In this document: positions 33,418 through 49,315 of the stretch, in pieces | Position numbering within the stretch: the stretch's first letter is position 1 | How the letters are laid out: each line of letters opens with the position of its first letter | Source: Paramacrobiotus metropolitanus | Taxonomy: Eukaryota; Tardigrada; Eutardigrada; Parachela; Macrobiotidae | Reading direction: 5' to 3' | Length of the DNA stretch: 64,000 bases | Assembly: GCF_019649055.1 (NCBI RefSeq) | Contig: NW_026570338.1 | Span: forward strand, 186,001-250,000 | Program-made: the position numbers and the translations under genes | Notes under the pieces: generated by a model | The model's input: only the letters and a program-made list of their open reading frames with translations | Told to the model about the DNA's origin: nothing | The model's database searches: none

Positions 33418-33740
33418 GTCAGCTACTGACCGCCTCGGCAAAACACTGACGCGCCACTTCGGGGAGCTTTGGTGAAAAAAGTAAAAGGCCTGTATTCATT
33501 CTGCAAACAGGGCAATGTGCTTTCCCAAAGGCCAGATTTCAACACCGGATGAAGAAATTTCGCCGGTTTCCGAAAGGATGTCACCTGGTCTTCCAGAGCA
33601 AAATACCGCGCGTCATAAACTTGGGCCATTTCCAGCAGAATTTGCCCGGGATGCCAGATGTTGCCCATCGGCAGGAATGCGTTTGAATACTCAGCTACTT
33701 CGGGAACAAACCAATACCGAGGATGCTGACTCACATTATC
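33418..33740 (-). pseudogene. Kinase-domain fragment with frameshift
   Basis: A fragment related to the fourth pseudokinase domain of the gene at 39981-46249. Compare HPRYWFVPE with HPPYWFAPE, FLPMGNIWHPGQILLEMAQVY with FLPMTNIWHFGHILLEMAQVY, then LPCLQNEYRPF with LPFMEKGYKPY. After the T run near 33474 the frame shifts: the homologous SPKL..QCFAE continues in another frame to about 33418. There is no upstream N-lobe and no start. It is a partial, decayed duplicate lying between the single-domain kinase and a retrotransposon remnant. Confidence 0.75.
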
Positions 33741-33984
33741 CCAACGAAAAGTTTATCCAGTTTTACCTAAACCAAGGCGCGACAAAAGTTGAGTACGTCG
33801 TCGGCACAAGCTCTTTTTCCGTTAACGCATGTCGCGGCACTGTTGCAACTCACGTGGTTTACCAGTGTACCAATTGTCTGCTCCGTACCACAGATTTCAG
33901 AAACGGGAACTCGCCGTCTCACTCCTCAAACCGATAATGTACGTATTTTAATTGTAATATACAAAACCGGCAACATCGAAGCAA

Positions 33985-39587: not shown

Positions 39588-39980
39588 CTAACTAAAAATC
39601 AAAGACTCAAAATGTCCACAGTTTCGAGCACTATAGTGGTCATAATAAGCCCACATGGATCTCTTGGGCTTCGCACGAACTAATGCGCGCTTGCTCCGGC
39701 CGATATCACGAACTGCTGCAAACGAGGCACAATTCAAAAGTCGCTGGATATACTCGTACGTAGGCATTTCATATGTAAGTGGAAAATGCAAATAGCCGGT
39801 AAGGTCGAGATTTTCTAAGCTGTGAAGGCAGTCCAGGGATGCAGCATCAAAACAGTCGATGGTGCTACGCTCAAACTCCAAACTTCTTAGCTTTGGGAAT
39901 CCCGTAAAATCATCTTTGGAAACCTTAATGTTTAGGCAGTCCTCGAATCGCAGCGTCAGTAAATTATACAGATGTAGTTC
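39588..39980 (-). pseudogene. LRR-like tail beyond an in-frame TGA
   Basis: This is the direct continuation of the last exon of the four-pseudokinase gene, same frame, 131 codons open to a stop at 39588. The sequence (ELHLYNLLTLRFEDC, FPKLRSLEFERS, LHSLENLDLTGYLHF) aligns with the C-terminal leucine-rich part of the upstream half of the same gene (ELSLPNLLTLRLERC, FSKLRCLEISNWTFERF, LPYLEMLML). It is cut off by TGA at 39981-39983, where the other repeat has AGG. Either the protein is truncated, or the stop is read through, or the assembly is wrong. The frame stayed open over 131 codons, so the loss would be recent. Confidence 0.7.
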
Positions 39981-42900
39981 TCAAAGGAATCTGCAATCAA
40001 AGCCACTGATCCCGGTGATAAGGAGCTCGATGACCAGGTCAGACACTGGAGAAAACTGCACTCGTTTAAGGTCAGCGGCGCTCTTAACAATTAACTGCAT
40101 TGGTCGATCTCGATCGGCATCGCGTGTCGCCAGAAATACCACTCGTTCACCTTTTTTCTCAGCATCTGGCAGAACATGCATCTGGATTTTCGTTGCTGAC
40201 ATGTGATGTGGCTGCGGTTCCGTGTAGCGTAAGGCGCCTTGCCACTCTACGACTTCATTTATAGTTAGCGCTCGCATCGCGAACCTTGGTAACTCATGAC
40301 TGATGATCTTTCGTTGGATTCCATCCGAACAACGAAAGAACGACTGAGGACCACTTTGCGCTAACAGTTCGTTGACCGTTGGGCGATTTATCGGCTCAGC
40401 AAAACACTGCTGAAGGACTTCGCGGAGTTTAGGTGACAGGTACGACGGAATGTACGGTTTATAACCCTTTTCCATAAAGGGGAGCACACTTTGCGTACTG
40501 CCAATTTTGACGGCACCGGACGGAGGAACCTCGCCAGTTGCCGGAAGGTTGACGTGGTTTTCCTGAACGAAATATCGCTCAGTATACACTTGTGCCATTT
40601 CCAGCAGGATATGTCCGAAATGCCAGATATTAGTCATCGGCAAGAATGTGTGTGAAAACCCAGTTAACTCTTCTGGAGCAAACCAGTACGGAGGATGCCG
40701 GCACAGTATATCTAGACGTCCTTGGGCACCGACGAGATCCAATAACGACGGTGTGATAAGTATCTTGGCTTTCTGATATACTCCGCAACTGTGCTGGTCA
40801 CAGAGGTGTATAGACCAGATTGTAATGGGTTCGCTGCGGATTTCATTTTCTTTCAGATAGTTTAGTCCGTTCAGGATGTCCAGCGAGTATGACCGAATCT
40901 CCGTCCACGATAAATGCGCGTTATCCATGTGCCAAGGCAGAGCAATATCACCTGTTAATATTGTTCATGTCAACCCGAAAATACGAGACGCAATATTACA
41001 TACCTGGATCGGAGAAATATGTTGCTGTAAGCTTTAGTACTTCCGTGGCTTGAATGTCCAACGTGAGGAACTGCATCACCGCTTCGTGATTAATGGTAGG
41101 GTAGTGCTCCAGGGATTTTCGTTGTGTTAGACCGATCTCGGTTGAAGTGATTGCCCAAGATTTCGCTAAAGTGAATTCTCTGATAACTTCTCGGTAGTTT
41201 ATGCTTCCTGCTCGCTGTTCGTCCTCCACCACATCTGACAGCGGACTGGATGGACCGATGTACGCAGTCAGGTTTGGTTTTCTGTCCGTGCGAACTAACC
41301 GAAAGGTCAACGAGTCTATGTTTCCGGTACTGTTGTAAATGATATGACGAAGCAGCATATCAGCCGTCGGTCGATTTTCTGGGTCTTCGTAAAATATAAG
41401 ATACAGTAAATCAAGAAATGACGGTGGAACGGCATCGGACAGTAAGGAGAACCACCCTCGCCGATGGTCGTGAGGATACAACGCATTCTCTTTAATGTCA
41501 AAATGTTCAGTGGGTATTCCCTGCTCTTTAGCGACCTCGGCACGCTGAGTTAATATGAAAGTGACAACCCTTCCAAATGACCAAATATCGGTCTTGCAGG
41601 TTACTGCGCTGAAGTCTGCTTTGGCTGTGCATTCCGCCATTTCTGGTGACATGTACCAACGGGCGTACCGCGAGTAGGTACGACGGCGTTCGCGAACACT
41701 TCGCGGTAGATGCAGCTTTTGCAAGTAATTATCCATATCGCTGAGCTTCGCCGTGTAGAAATCGCCATGCGGCTCTAGAAGGATATTCCAGGGATGTATT
41801 GCACCATGCAAGGCATGTGCGATACTTCGGTCCACTGAGTGCAGATACTGCAGTCCCAACAGAATCCCTCGTGTCAGGTCAGTGACGTTCTGCAGTGTCG
41901 GTACTACATCGCGACGCTCAAAGAAATCTCCCACAGACCCAGCTAAGAAAAGGTTCACATTAACGCGCAGTACTTCATCCTACTTTTAATCCGCTACGCG
42001 AGCGCCTCGTACCGTATGCATCTATGCAGGATCTTAAATGTTTACAAGTGCATCCGTCATAAGGCTCATACTTGTAATAAATTAATGGTTCATTGTCAAA
42101 AGAGCTCGTTGTTGACTGCCGGCAATGGTAGAAGACGTACACCTTAATTGTGTAGTAATGTCGATCTTACCCGCATAATAATCCATCCTCAACACCAGAT
42201 TGTGGATTGACGATGTTACCGAAAAGGCAGCTAAATTTGGGTGCTGCAGTTTACACAGCTCCTTCAGTTCGTCTTTATATGGAGTGGTCTGCAGTTCGTC
42301 AGTTTGAATGATCTTGTGAATGTTGTCACCGATTAGCCGGAATTCTCCATGTAAACCAATCTGGATACATCGTTCCGGCTGCCTAAGTAACGAACGACCT
42401 TCAGGTTACATAATTACCACGTTCCAATTTAAAATAGACTTTCGACAATGCCCCCAACACTAACGAAATTTCGGGAGCTAGTAGTACCTGACAGGAGGTA
42501 ATCCGCTATTGCGCCTGCTTATCAGACTTTGGTACTTCCAGATATCGCCTGCCGCACGCGACTGTATCAAATACGGATGGATCTGTAGATACTGCCATAA
42601 GCCAGGCAATGATATCTGTAAGTTTTCCAAGATAACTGGTATATCTGCGATGTTGCCTTCGTGGAGCATCAACATCTCAAGGTAAGGTAGCTCTTGTAGC
42701 ACATTGTCCTCAAATCGCTCAAACGTCCAATTGGAAATTTCCAGACAGCGGAGTTTAGAGAAATTTACAAGATCGCCTGGCGCCAGAACAACCTTTGTGC
42801 ATCGCTCCAAACGAAGAGTAAGGAGATTGGGCAGACTGAGCTCCCTGAAGACATCGCACTTCAGTCCCGCGACATTGCTAATCGTCAGGTCCACAATCAG

Positions 42901-45900
42901 ATCACAGGCGGCTGCGAAGACGCTGGCATTCATGCCCTCTATACTCAGCATTTCCGCGGCTATCGGTCGATCCGCATCCAGATTGCGGTAGACCCATAGG
43001 TTACACGCAGCTCTCGCCCCATCGGGAAAGGTCAACGCAATTTCTTGCGCTTCACATGAATCCTCCCCAGAAGGAGCGTCTGTGATGGCTGAACGGATTT
43101 GCGAGATGGTTACGTGTCGCATGCAAAATACTGGTTTTTCTTTTCCATCCACCACAGATTCCAGTGACATTGCCGTGCGAAAGAATTCATCAGCGGCTAG
43201 TTGTTCTAATGATGGACGCTCATGCTCGTCCCTAAAACACGCACTGATAACCCGTTTGGCATCCCAGGAGAGCTCCTTTGGGACAGCTGGACGCCAACCG
43301 TCGCGCAAAAGCGTCATGACCTCAGTATTCAACCTATTCGGTCCCACTTCCATAGTTTCTCTTTGGAACTGCAGCTCGGTCGCCGAAACCATCTTCAGTA
43401 GGAGATGTCCCATTCCCCAGACGTGCTGCTTCCCCGAAGCACCCAGTAAACTGGCCAAAGATTTCACGCTAATCGCTTCCGGAGACATGAAGCGCGCGGT
43501 GGATATGAAACTGCGGTTGGTCCAGTTCTCCCCTGCGTGCTTAGCAAAGGCCTCGGTCAATTCGGCGTCGCTGCGGTACGTTGTTTGGATTTTGGCTTGG
43601 AGAAAGGTGCCAGTACGATGCTTTCTGCACAGTATTACCATAATTATAATGGCAGATACCGTGAATGGGCACTTTTCGTTCTTGTAGGAACAAGAGCCCA
43701 TCTATTAGCTGCCGGCAGGAAATCTTAATGTAGTTCCACGGCAAAGTTTTCTGTTCGAGGTACCACTGAAGACAATAACTCTCTGGAACAAACAACACAT
43801 CATAATCCAGTAAATAACTGATGACAGGAAATGCACTGACAGTTTACCTGGCTCAAATTCCAGCTGGTATACAACGCTAATAAAATGTCGCGACAAGCGG
43901 AAATGATAATCAAGCAACGTAAAAATTGAGCTGTGGGTCAGCTGAAGTAGAGGCTGAAATTGCTTTTCACTCAGTTCTCGCATATCGTCGAGAAAATCTT
44001 CATCCAGTAAACGGAAATCACTGTCCAGTGTACATGGGTAAATATTTTCCCATAGTAACATTTTATCGGTGACGGCAACAGCATGGTCGACGGTTGTCAC
44101 AAAGAAGCCTTGTTCAAAGCGCTCGGTGCGGTTGAATTTTGTGTAGTAATAAATCTTGGACGGTTCGAACATGGAGCAGTAGTACTCCGTTCCCAGATAC
44201 AGTTGTACGCGTTCTATACACGTCACTTCTCTCGCGTGAACTGAAACATCCGTTGCAAAGATATAATGCTGCAGCAACGCTGCGGCAGTTGGACGATCGC
44301 AAATGTGAGTGCGGAAACACAGATGGAGCAAATCGTATACACCCGGTGGAATTCTCCCCGATACCGTCTCGAGGACCGAGGCATCGTCAGCTAATCTCGG
44401 TAAGGTGTCGTTCGAGTAATACGGATTTTTTGCCATATCCCTGGCGACCAACGCCGCATCGACATCAGTTATATATTCGAGCATGTAAAGGATAACACGA
44501 CCGAAGCCAGCTATGTCCTCGGCCCTTAACCTTTTGTCGCTGACGCATGCACGGGCACTGTTGCTAATACGATTTGCCGTATGCGGTGCCTGAATTTTGT
44601 CGCACGTTTCGGGTTTAGGCTCTATTCCGGCGATCTTTGGAGAAGGAAAATCTCCGTTTCCAGCTTCAGTCAGCAAAATCTTTTCTGGTTGTAGGTGACC
44701 GTGCACTATACCATTTTGGTGCAGGAAAGCCACACCTTGAAGAAGTTCGTGCGCAAAGCGCAAAGTCTGGAACATTGTTGCCCTTTCTCTGAACTGCGCA
44801 AGATCACGATCTGTAAAGAATAATCGATTACATATTTTCGAGTCATGTAAAGCGTAAAACTAACCTCAATAACGTATACACTGTATATAATATAAAAAGT
44901 CAACGGGGCAACGTGGTGTCCGTTCTTGGAACCATGGATGTTACGGAAAACTTACGAGAAATGTTTTTGTTATAATTAATTTTGCTTTAACCTGCTAATA
45001 ATCCTGCTAATAAGTAAAAAACCGAAGTACTGTTGGAGGCACGACAGCCTGCGTGGTAGATACGCCACTTTGCGTATGCGTACCAACGCACACATGCTGA
45101 TTCGCCCTCTCTCGTACGTACGTGAGTGGCTGCACTGCACTCTCCGCCTAGCGGATCTACCGCGGGCGCACTCACTGAGCATACTTGCTCTCTCGTTCCT
45201 CTCACTCGCAGTATGACTCAGCGCCTATACGCTCGCGTTGGATACGAGCCCAGTCTGCGCAGCACATTCCACATGTCTGGACGCACGACGTTGCCGCCAG
45301 CGCTCTTTCTCTCTCTACATTTCATTACGCGCTAGAACTCGCTCGCAGCAACATGACTTGCTGATTTTCATGCCAGACATTGGCGTCTTTGTTCTTTCTC
45401 CCGCAATCACGCGGTATTTTGCTCCCCTTTATTTGTCAATAAAGATCACTGTGAGCTCCCTGCGCTTGCCTGTTATATGGTCGCAGATCGCGGTTTCGAG
45501 CCAGGCCGTGCGCGCTGCCCGCGCGCACGGCTCCTCTGATTATTTGAGCCAATTTAACCCCCATGTGTGGAGCTACAAATGCCCCCCATTCCCGCGGAAC
45601 GTGATGGATTCCTCTCCCAACTGACGGAGATGGACGCCTCCCCGCGACGGATGCCTCCCAAACTGGACGGAGATGCCGCGGAGCGAGAAACGCCTCCTGC
45701 GATGCCGTGGAGCGAGAATTGCCTCCTGCGATGCCGACGGCGAACGCACTAGAACTCGCTCGCAGCAACATGACTTGCTGATTTTCATGCCAGACATTGG
45801 CGTCTTTGTTCTTTCTCCCGCAATCACGCGGTATTTTGCTCCCCTTTATTTGTCAATAAAGATCACTGTGAGCTCCCTGCGCTTGCCTGTTATAGTACAT

Positions 45901-46249
45901 AAAAAAAATATATAAAAATACCAGTTAAAGATGATTTTTGTTTTATACTGTACATACTGTGGCAGTATTCCATCAGTACTCCCGTACGTGCGCGCAGAAG
46001 TTCCCCGACGTAGTAATACTGTACTATGTATGGATGCTCCAGTTCTCGCAAGCGTATCCTATCGTTGTGGGAAAGTCCTCCGTCTTGTTGTCCAGCTGTG
46101 AAGTATTTTGCCGCTAGCCGCTTCTGATGATCTTCGCTACCCAACCGCATAATTTCGCTATTGGCGCCAGAATGAATTTTCTCTTTTTCAAAAAATGATT
46201 TCCCCTCGACATCTACTCTGTTGCGAAATATTTGTACCAAATGAGACAT
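39981..46249 (-). CDS. Four-pseudokinase protein with leucine-rich segments
   Basis: Seven exons join in frame: 45958-46249, 43848-44810, 43639-43782, 42488-43595, 42171-42382, 41004-41942, 39981-40951; about 1540 aa. Start at MSHLVQIF. It has two halves of the same plan, kinase-kinase-LRR. Domain 1 has LAAKYF and VLMEYCH but IVHGHLQPEKILL; domain 2 VPIHGICHYN and RFMSPEA; then LLTLRLERC-type leucine repeats. Domain 3 has LHGAIHPWNILL, DMDN, WYMSPEM and KTDIWSFG; domain 4 YWFAPEE and NIWHFGHILLEM. None keeps the HRD catalytic Asp, so all four look like pseudokinases, presumably scaffolds or allosteric modules. A 43-bp intron (43596-43638) and a 105-bp intron (42383-42487) are inferred because they restore frame; without the latter there would be two genes, the downstream one lacking a start. 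The gene ends at a TGA that cuts the second LRR segment. It is divergent from the kinase gene at 46744. Confidence 0.75.
45332..45894 (+). mobile_element. Small LTR-type element (TRIM-like)
   Basis: Two identical 146-bp direct repeats (45332-45477, 45749-45894) flank 271 bp. Immediately after the first repeat comes TGGTCGCAGATCGCGGTTTC (45478-45497), the complement of a tRNA 3' end (...GCGACCA with a T-arm-like GAAACC before it), as expected for a reverse-transcription primer-binding site. The repeats contain AATAAAG, a possible polyadenylation signal. The interior has no protein, only a 29-bp tandem repeat. Missing are a clear TG...CA boundary, a polypurine tract and a target-site duplication. 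Identical repeats indicate recent insertion. It lies in intron 1 of the four-pseudokinase gene, antisense to it. Confidence 0.65.
45672..45729 (+). repeat. 29-bp tandem repeat inside the LTR-type element
   Basis: Two 29-bp units beginning GATGCCG and ending GCCTCCTGC (45672-45700, 45701-45729) differ at three positions. A third partial unit (GATGCCGACGG) runs on to 45740. The repeat is GC-rich compared with its surroundings. Confidence 0.8.
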
Positions 46250-46743: not shown

Positions 46744-49315
46744 ATGAGTACCGTTGAGATTGGCTCAGGTTGCACTTACACTTATGACAAAGACAACTTT
46801 ATAAAGAAGGGCGTCTACAAAGCGCAGACCACTGCCCGCTGGGATGCTGATCCAGGCGGGCCGTCGACGCTTGCCATCAAGGTGGTGAGATGGCCGAAAC
46901 AAGCATTTGCAAATCAAGATCTCGTGGACCACTGCCAGCGCCTTATAAATCTGAATGACGCTAACGTGGCGGTATACCGAAAAGTAACGTTGCGCGTAAC
47001 CAGTATCGGAGCAACCTATCTCGAATTTGCAATGGATTACTATGCAGGTAACACACATACATTCTCCGTGGTTAAAATAAGTACCCAACAGGTAGTGAGG
47101 CGAAAAAAGATACCATAATTCAAAAACAAAAGTTTAGGTACTTTGAGGAGTATTATAACAGTGAGAAAAATATGAAGACAACATAGGATCAGCAGTTGCA
47201 CTCATAGAGAGGCGGGAAGCGGTAAATTAAACTCATTATCTCACACGCTGCATGTGTTTAGGAGGCAATTTGAAAGATTTCATATCTAGTTACGAAAACA
47301 ACGATAGCAGCCTACCGGCGAAAGCCCTGTATGACTGGTCCAAGCAGATGGCTAGCGGACTCAAATACCTTCACCAAAGAGGAATCATTCATGGCAGTTT
47401 GAAGCCAGGATGTATCCTTTTGGATCGGTCACCGGATCGTGGGATCACCTTGCGTATCGCGCGCTTAGACCGGCATATTGCCTTGCAGGCCGAAAAGACC
47501 ATGTCCTCCGATGTAAAGCGAATGCGAAATCTGATTCGTATCTGCACCAGATCATCCACGAGCACGTTCATGTCCCCGGAAATGCTGACCAATCTGGATC
47601 TGGAAACAAGGGACATTGTAGGCCGCAAAACGGACGTATGGAGTTTGGGAGAAATTGCCGTTGAACTGGGTCGGTGTTGTTTCCGAGAAAAGGAGAAAGT
47701 TTTGTACAACACAGAAACGAAAGCTAGGATTGACGTCCGCGACATGTCTTCTGTATGGAGGTCAATGCGAACAGTACAGGGCTATTCCCCGGAGATTCCT
47801 GACACGGTCCCCGGTGATTTTGCTCGAAGGATATTGCAGTTTTGCATAGCTAGAAATCCTGCGAATCGATACGGGACTGAAAAACTGCATACAGAGTTAC
47901 TTAAGGCTGAGCACAACGTATTCGGCAAAACCTGGAAGCACCATCCAGAGAATCAAAATGAATATGATCACCACGAGGCCCCAAGGGAAACGGAAAGTGA
48001 ACGCGACGTTTCTTACCCCATAGTAGAAGAAGTTGGCTATTACTGTGAATACGAGATAAATTTCCCGGATGGCTTTCTCGGACAGGGAAACTTTGGTGCG
48101 GTATTCAAAGCGACCATAACGCAGCGAAGCAACGGGAAGGGTGATAACGATAACGTTTACACCGGCCCCAGAGAAGTAGCCGTTAAGACGGTGTATGTTG
48201 TGGACCGGTCAACACGAGACAGACTGAGAAATGAGCACACGTTGCGGAAGGAAAAAGAACGCTGGGGAAAACTGGTCAAGTTGCGACATCCACATTTGAT
48301 GGCTTATTACAAGTTTGTTCTCAGCATGTGGCGTGACAATGCCAAGATGGACATTGTCATGAATTATTGCCAAGGTAAGTTTGACAAAAGTTCCAAAATC
48401 CTTTGGTAACTTTGAAGCTAGAGCCATCAATGTATAAAGTTCCAAACAGCGTTTTTAAGCGGCAAAGTGGTAAGCAGTTGCAAAAAATTACTATAGCTGT
48501 GTTTACACTCACTCACACTACAGTAGGAGTACAGATATTTGGTAGTTATCACCAGTGTGGTATTTTTGAAAATTGTTTGAGCGATAAGTTCAACTTGACT
48601 TACATTTACAGCTGGTGACCTTAGTCTTCTCATCGAAGAATATAAGAGTCGTGGGAATGCACTAACTGTGCCTAAAATGATCACTATGACAGCACACATA
48701 TCCAGTGGACTGCAGTATCTTCATGAAAACAATTTCATTCATGCCGATCTAAAGCCCGCCAACGTTTTCTTTAGCGGGCAAAGCGGACCTGGTGGATGCC
48801 TGTTACTGGTCATCGGGGACCTGGACAATAGTGTGCTCATTCGCAACGGCTACGTCGACCCGGTGGATTTTAAAATGATTCAGTTCACAGTTGGTTACAT
48901 GTCACCGGAACTGGCGCAGGCCTTATGCTTCCAACTCGATGATCAGTACCTGGAGCGGACCGATATCTGGAGTCTGGGATGCGTAATGCTCGATTTGGCC
49001 AACTGCTGTTGTATGATCAAAGAAACCCATTTTAGCCGGGGAGATAATGACACGGATTTCATACGACAATCAGACGATCCCCAGGAAGAAGTCTTCCTGA
49101 ATAGGATAGCAATCGGTGGTTATAAACGACACATCTCCAAAGAGATTGGTCAAGAAGAAGCCGACATCATTCGCGCTTGCCTTACTGTGGACAGCAGGCA
49201 GCGGATAACGGCACGGGCCGTGTTTGATAAGCTGCGTTTGATGATGGGCAATTTTAGCCAAGAAACGCGAGAAAAAACATTCGGTCGTGGTGTTGTAAAC
49301 TTCAATTTTCTCTAA
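46744..49315 (+). CDS. Tandem pseudokinase-kinase protein
   Basis: Three exons (46744-47047, 47262-48374, 48612-49315) join in frame to 706 aa. Domain 1 (residues ~1-395): LAIKVVRW, MDYYAGGNLKDF, GIIHGSLKPGCILL (HGS instead of HRD), no DFG, TFMSPEM, KTDVWSLG; a pseudokinase. Domain 2 (~430-700): LGQGNFGAVFKA (intact Gly-rich loop), EVAVKTV (Lys), FIHADLKPANVFF (catalytic Asp and Asn kept), IGDLDNS (DLD for DFG), GYMSPEL, RTDIWSLGC; probably able to bind ATP and perhaps active. The pseudokinase-kinase order recalls the JAK and GCN2 arrangement, where the first domain regulates the second, but no sequence kinship to those is claimed. No signal peptide or membrane helix, so cytosolic. Confidence 0.85.

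Follow-up and report, generated by a model that had tools for sequence, protein, structure and literature searches.

Does the minus strand of this tardigrade contig encode a single protein that carries four catalytically dead kinase folds, and is the copy which suggests this still a working gene? The question concerns positions 39981 to 46249 of a 64,000-nucleotide window of Paramacrobiotus metropolitanus DNA (contig NW_026570338.1, positions 186,001 to 250,000; all coordinates below are counted within this window). The original prediction saw there one gene for four pseudokinase domains, arranged in two kinase-kinase-LRR halves. Our answer differs for the family and for the copy. For the family, the one-gene claim is supported by open paralogues, by a conserved junction intron and by a collinear duplication. 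If the window copy is taken for an intact gene, the claim fails, on a frame change within K2, a stop within LRR2, the number of exons and an extension of the homology to 39588. We are highly confident in the architecture itself, that is, in a single protein with four pseudokinase domains and two LRR units in the order K1-K2-LRR1-K3-K4-LRR2. Further, we hold it to be fairly probable that this locus belongs, as a damaged copy, to a small family encoding one protein of about 1700 residues, the intact members of which would scaffold or sense.

Parts of the gene served as queries in four protein searches for relatives in the window's own genome (169.8 Mb, 533 contigs). Among the matches listed, those outside the locus with E < 1e-20 lie only on contigs C143 and C205, so that family members are present on three contigs of the genome; further distant members are possible. 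Two paralogues on C143 (L001 and L002) display the complete order, kinase-kinase-LRR twice, under predicted splicing. When their splice sites are set by homology, each of them has six exons and zero stops, and the proteins are 1706 and 1701 residues long. The evidence for the architecture is thereby independent of the window copy. All splice sites reported here are predictions. The six-exon plan of the family has intron phases 1-1-2-1-1, and all five intron positions are kept in the window copy.

The members on C205 are arranged differently. One stretch (L003) contains K1-K2-LRR1-K3, and an exon with K4-LRR2 (L004) is found about 25 kb further on; the interval harbors a dispersed-repeat copy towards each of its ends. 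From a reading of both end stretches, we take L003 and L004 to be one gene with a presumed, very large intron. The same contig carries a half-length gene. Its N-lobe is nearest to K1 (alignment score 82-133, versus 41-56 for K3), whereas its C-lobe exon is nearest to K3 (296-309, versus 74-107 for K1). Such a combination of a K1-type N-lobe with a K3-type C-lobe is what one would expect if a single gene had lost the sequence between two equivalent introns.

A relic of another copy, K4-like and more decayed, is located on the minus strand about 6 kb from the window gene (33428-33770). This second copy is broken in frame: positions 33480-33770 show 43% identity over 98 residues with one TAA (E 6.7e-17), and over 33428-33746 the homology is spread over two frames. 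The window copy also has a dual-kinase neighbour in head-to-head orientation. As a conserved partner this neighbour is unsupported, since no match to it occurs in the 3.0-3.1 kb upstream of both C143 genes. Trehalose-synthase matches (PF00982) were noticed at three loci of the genome, and a lipocalin-type frame was read as well; trehalose-synthesis (TPS-TPP) genes are described for Paramacrobiotus sp. TYO (PMC8277472). Rfam and tRNA scans of the 64-kb window gave no matches.

With the paralogues as a guide, the window copy can be read along the minus strand as follows. Exon 1 (45958-46249) contains the start ATG and the K1 N-lobe; its 292 nt equal the length in L001, and its identity to L001 and L002 is 37% and 40%, respectively. 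Intron 1 (44811-45957, phase 1, donor CACA/GTATGT, acceptor TTTACAG/ATCG) is enlarged by a dispersed repeat. Exon 2 (43848-44810, 963 nt, again the length in L001) encodes the K1 C-lobe, in which HGHLQPEKILL is devoid of the HRD Asp, and the K2 N-lobe, and exon 3 (42488-43782) encodes the K2 C-lobe and LRR1 with its cap. The junction intron between the halves (42383-42487) is followed by exon 4 with the K3 N-lobe (42171-42382), by exon 5 with the K3 C-lobe (HGAIHPWN, SDMD, SPEM) and the K4 N-lobe (41004-41942), and by exon 6 (39588-40951), which carries the K4 C-lobe and LRR2 and reaches the C-terminus of the family at a TAG (39588-39590).

The gene looks like the product of an internal duplication of a three-exon kinase-kinase-LRR unit, which would have occurred before the paralogues split. 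We propose this because of three features. Firstly, the halves are collinear over 727 columns with 25% identity (hhalign probability 100, E 6.4e-42), as compared between three first halves and two second halves, the window copy being left out. Secondly, in a tree of C-lobes every domain type forms its own group, K1 pairs with K3 (96/94), and a branch (98/97) sets K2 and K4 jointly apart from the rest. This tree is midpoint-rooted and comprises 19 C-lobes (4 K1, 5 K3, 3 K2, 2 K4 and 5 other kinases); it omits K2 and K4 of the window copy as well as the K4 sequences from L004, and three neighbour kinases in it are long-branched. Thirdly, both halves have phase-1 introns inside their kinases, at hinge positions that correspond to each other.

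A tandem of halves might also be two adjacent kinase-kinase-LRR genes or an operon, in which the first gene stops at the LRR1 stop and the second begins with K3. If the donor at the junction were left unused, translation would indeed meet an in-frame stop 1 to 5 residues later in all four loci that have both LRR1 and K3 (the window copy, the two C143 genes and L003 on C205). The original prediction had joined the halves across the apparent stop at 42478, and this join holds: a donor (CAG/GTACTA, after 42488) and an acceptor (before 42382) enclose an intron of 105 nt, in phase 2 and in frame. At the same four loci the phase-2 donor lies exactly 16 residues and 2 nt past the cap tryptophan of LRR1, the acceptors are matched in phase, and reading then continues without a stop into K3. 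The intron measures 105 nt in the window copy, 59 and 62 nt in the C143 genes and 1548 nt in L003. The downstream exon had further been said to have no start of its own, and exon 4 of the window copy contains no in-frame ATG before residue 65; the same absence, before residue 65-79, is found in three of the four loci. Only L003, with its long gap and an in-frame ATG at residue 10 of exon 4, would permit a separate start. The chimeric half-length gene is also consistent with one gene. Given the conserved position and phase of the donor, the short gaps of the three other loci and the missing ATG, we regard two genes or an operon as extremely unlikely and retain the single gene. The window copy of this single gene carries two lesions that the original prediction missed. 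The K2 anchors are separated by 58 nt in the window copy versus 54 nt in each of L001, L002 and L003, and the 4 extra nt amount to a frame change near 43640 (approximately 43630-43660, minus strand, in exon 3). It falls into the K2 catalytic loop, where HGICHYN is read in one frame and MVILCRK in the next; all three paralogues stay in one frame. Seven exons had been predicted to keep phase from 46249 to 39981, but the paralogue-guided models have six. The seventh was rejected: among GT-AG intervals between 10 and 180 nt long we counted 23 able to mask the frame change, and every one of them removes residues encoded by the paralogues (a 43-nt interval, for example, removes VILCRKHRTGTFLQ). The second lesion had been taken for the end of the gene. 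Position 39981 belongs to an in-frame TGA (39981-39983) inside LRR2, past which the same frame continues for 130 codons more, homologous to LRR2 and to the family C-terminus. The position of the TGA is a sense codon in all four other LRR2 copies read.

We suggest that the window copy is probably a recent pseudogene, with an assembly error or a null allele as alternatives. Its pN is 0.34-0.39 after the TGA versus 0.36-0.39 in the rest of the copy; as divergence is alike before and after the stop, either the copy was lost recently or its lesions are errors. The copy could accordingly still be functional, if the lesions were assembly errors or a null allele, or if they were bypassed by an unusual small intron together with stop readthrough. 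It otherwise reads cleanly, and the available part of the report on the matching published Paramacrobiotus assembly (Paramacrobiotus sp. TYO) describes it as Nanopore-based, polished with Nanopore and Illumina (PMC8277472). Against this stand two independent lesions in one copy, when the exons read from other members of the family showed none, the loss of encoded residues that any masking interval would entail, and the relic of another copy in the neighbourhood. A functional window copy is therefore, in our opinion, rather unlikely, and we continue to treat it as a damaged one.

Between L001 and L002, the intact pair, dN is 0.24 and dS 1.27 over 1697 codons, a ratio of about 0.19, and both values are similar across all four segments; the whole length thus looks to be under purifying selection. 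For the window copy, dN/dS says little, its synonymous sites being near saturation.

Pfam matches recover all four kinase-like domains of the window copy and the LRRs that follow the second and the fourth, some of them below the cut-offs (31.7 bits for PF00069, 23.1 for PF07714 and 27 for LRR_8). K1 and K2, with 27.7 and 29.7 bits, are both slightly under the PF00069 cut-off; the kinase match of K3 has 50.2 bits, and K4 reaches 28.6 bits on PF07714. In the intact paralogues the K1 and K3 exons pass the kinase cut-offs. For K4, Pfam finds no kinase in L001 at E 0.1, and the half-length gene scores under both kinase cut-offs. Structure prediction, which had been proposed as a check, yielded two poor AlphaFold models (mean pLDDT 50.2 and 45.7) that lend weak support at most, and for this reason the folds rest on sequence profiles. 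In a Foldseek search with the first model, the best 50 of 1831 matches were all kinases, with low TM-scores by query (0.12-0.15); the 799-residue frame used for this model runs through the predicted intron 2 of L001, in which the reading frame stays open.

VAIK, HRD and DFG are the names of the catalytic motifs of kinases. The HRD Asp had been predicted to be missing from all four domains, and inspection by eye of the window copy and of the other copies read agrees. The loop Asn and a DFG-type Asp of K3 are present in all five aligned copies, in which SPEM is kept too, and a VAIK-type Lys was seen by eye in all four copies of exon 4. The corresponding Lys of K1 is kept in the window copy, L001 and L002 and absent in L003 (by eye). 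Neither an HRD nor a DFG motif is recognisable by eye in K2 and K4, where the VAIK position is ambiguous. The domains unite a kinase fold with the loss of at least one catalytic motif, two features by which a pseudokinase is recognised, besides a lack of phosphotransfer activity.

As for the LRR units, the window copy has LRR_8 matches of 15.0 bits in LRR1 and 25.9 bits in LRR2, both below 27, and no LRR match reaches its curated Pfam cut-off in the exons scanned from the window and the paralogues. A profile built from 15 LRR modules finds its best matches in Toll-like and LGR-type receptor ectodomains, over its own LRR part. A module on C49, used as query, gave at least 153 genome matches (150 of 423 candidates scored), which may include general LRRs. 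Judged by these matches, the kinase-linked LRR module is one of a very large predicted family in this genome. Five LRR places, picked from the matches of one protein search, were examined. They comprise an astacin-type protease joined to an LRR, paired LRR frames of 290-348 residues on two contigs plus one more LRR frame, and, on C88, a gene (L007) in which three LRR modules come after a kinase. When the 15 modules are aligned, two non-kinase members (L005 and L008) are seen to have a cap with cysteines, of the HCxCDYxWLR type, which is missing from the kinase-linked modules. We infer that a secreted-type LRR module may have been captured by intracellular kinases. A module shared across such a large family looks like the work of domain shuffling.

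No described family with this architecture had been known to the original prediction, and none was found among the open-licence literature searched. Among the matches listed for tardigrade kinase expansions, for tandem kinases with LRRs and for multi-pseudokinase proteins, the available portions of the open-licence texts do not contain it, and an open-licence search that combined tardigrades with pseudokinases found no paper. A genome comparison reports 27 tardigrade-only kinase clusters, and in its available part this architecture is not named (PMC5531438).

Several known systems share single features with the family. Plant tandem kinase proteins (WTK1/Yr15, Pm24, Sr62, Pm57), as described in the available parts of their reports, likewise possess at least two kinase-like folds per chain, pseudokinases included. 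They are kinase-pseudokinase proteins with at least one putatively active domain, whereas here the HRD Asp is missing from all four domains, to which two LRR units are fused; the likeness consists in the kinase fold, with no further homology shown. JAK proteins consist of a JH2 pseudokinase followed by a JH1 kinase, hence also of tandem kinase folds of which one is non-catalytic. The family shows weak sequence and fold matches to the JH2 of JAK3 and JAK2, among many kinases. In contrast to JAK, none of the exons scanned matches FERM or SH2, no domain has the HRD Asp, and LRRs are present instead. LRR receptor kinases and LRRK proteins combine LRR and kinase in one chain, as the family does. 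An LRR receptor kinase is composed of a signal peptide, an LRR ectodomain, a transmembrane helix and then the kinase. The order in our family is different: the LRRs come after the kinases, the unit is duplicated, the catalytic Asp is missing, and hydropathy indicates no clear transmembrane segment. NACHT and NB-ARC, by which NLR proteins are recognised, have no match among the exons scanned. A similar arrangement in the same genome is that of L007, where three LRR modules of this family come after a kinase, with the kinase and the first LRR in one frame of 578 residues. It differs in having one active-like kinase (HTDIKSLN, GDLDN; 110 bits in Pfam), three LRR modules and no duplicated kinase-kinase unit.

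From the anatomy of the family and the general behaviour of pseudokinases, we tentatively propose a role as a non-catalytic scaffold or sensor in the cytosol. Intact members would be cytosolic and catalytically dead. Hydropathy averaged over 19 residues stays below 1.6 throughout L001 (maximum mean 1.26) and passes this value once in L002, at the N-terminus (1.63). The kinase folds might serve as docking or allosteric surfaces, and nucleotide binding may persist in K3, with its Lys, Asn and Asp kept. The two LRR units would bind ligands or partner proteins, and the protein as a whole could act as a scaffold or sensor that perhaps regulates active kinases from the same genomic expansion. The family would evolve by birth and death, with the window copy as a casualty. 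The residues retained in K3 might also be taken to mean that the domains are atypical active kinases and not pseudokinases at all, the more so as some kinases without HRD are active. With the HRD Asp replaced in all four domain types among the copies read, and K2 and K4 having no recognisable DFG, we find this highly unlikely. Another possibility is an animal immune sensor, whose LRRs would detect a non-self or modified-self ligand and whose pseudokinase array would act as decoy or signalling platform. Clustered, divergent, decaying and chimeric copies are in line with it, as is an LRR module that comes from a very large genomic family and is closest in profile to Toll-like and LGR ectodomains. 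In addition, the available part of a homology study states that intracellular components of the Toll pathway were not detected in tardigrades (PMC7056985). The intact pair, however, shows ordinary purifying selection with LRR-bearing segments that evolve no faster than the others, and LRRs have many other roles, so that an immune sensor appears unlikely to us and the general scaffold or sensor role is preferred. In its boldest form, the idea would be that tardigrades duplicated a kinase-kinase-LRR unit within one gene and thereby obtained a cytosolic dead-kinase immune sensor or decoy, in which LRRs from a receptor-type family read the ligand and four dead kinases present or gate active ones. 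We give this version only a small chance. If it were true, the immune platform would represent an independent animal counterpart of plant tandem-kinase receptors.

Taken together, four kinase folds without predicted catalysis in one chain have no precedent among the matches listed from open-licence literature. That the copy which drew attention is the broken one illustrates a limit of reading raw sequence. The conservation of the intact pair over its full length suggests that the dead kinase folds are kept for some purpose, and because intact, chimeric and decaying members coexist in one genome, the use of kinase folds purely as scaffolds becomes testable in this family.

Intron 1 of the quad gene, the damaged K1-K2-LRR1-K3-K4-LRR2 copy in the window, harbors a dispersed repeat (window 45020-45894), within which two direct copies of 151 nt each lie 417 nt apart. 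At least 41 matches to this repeat were listed in the genome to which the window belongs (G000), 2 of them being those at 45020-45894, and certain contigs carry two copies spaced 11-19 kb. The large interval that separates the K4-LRR2 exon from the rest of the family member on contig C205 contains, near each of its ends, sequence about 74% identical to the repeat. A half-length family member is present on the same contig (C205:37000-46900); its order is an N-lobe exon of K1 type, then a C-lobe of K3 type, K4 and LRR2.

A frame-broken relic of a K4-like segment lies at 33428-33770 on the minus strand; across 98 residues it shares 43% identity with K4 of the quad gene. On the other side of the quad gene, about 500 bp from its ATG, starts a divergent neighbor (46744-49312, plus strand) with what look like two kinase domains. 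The HRD Asp is absent from the first (HGSLKPG) and present in the second (HADLKPAN), a predicted pseudokinase-kinase order that is JAK-like.

Among the loci examined, the sole further kinase-LRR fusion was found on C88 (36500-45000), where a kinase that looks active by sequence is followed by three LRR modules. An LRR module of the same kind shares a single frame with an astacin-type protease on C49 (598500-605500).

Numerous kinase frames occur in G000, and a single contig often carries several of them; examples are C16, C41, C105, C220 and C232. This suggests that kinases have expanded greatly in G000.
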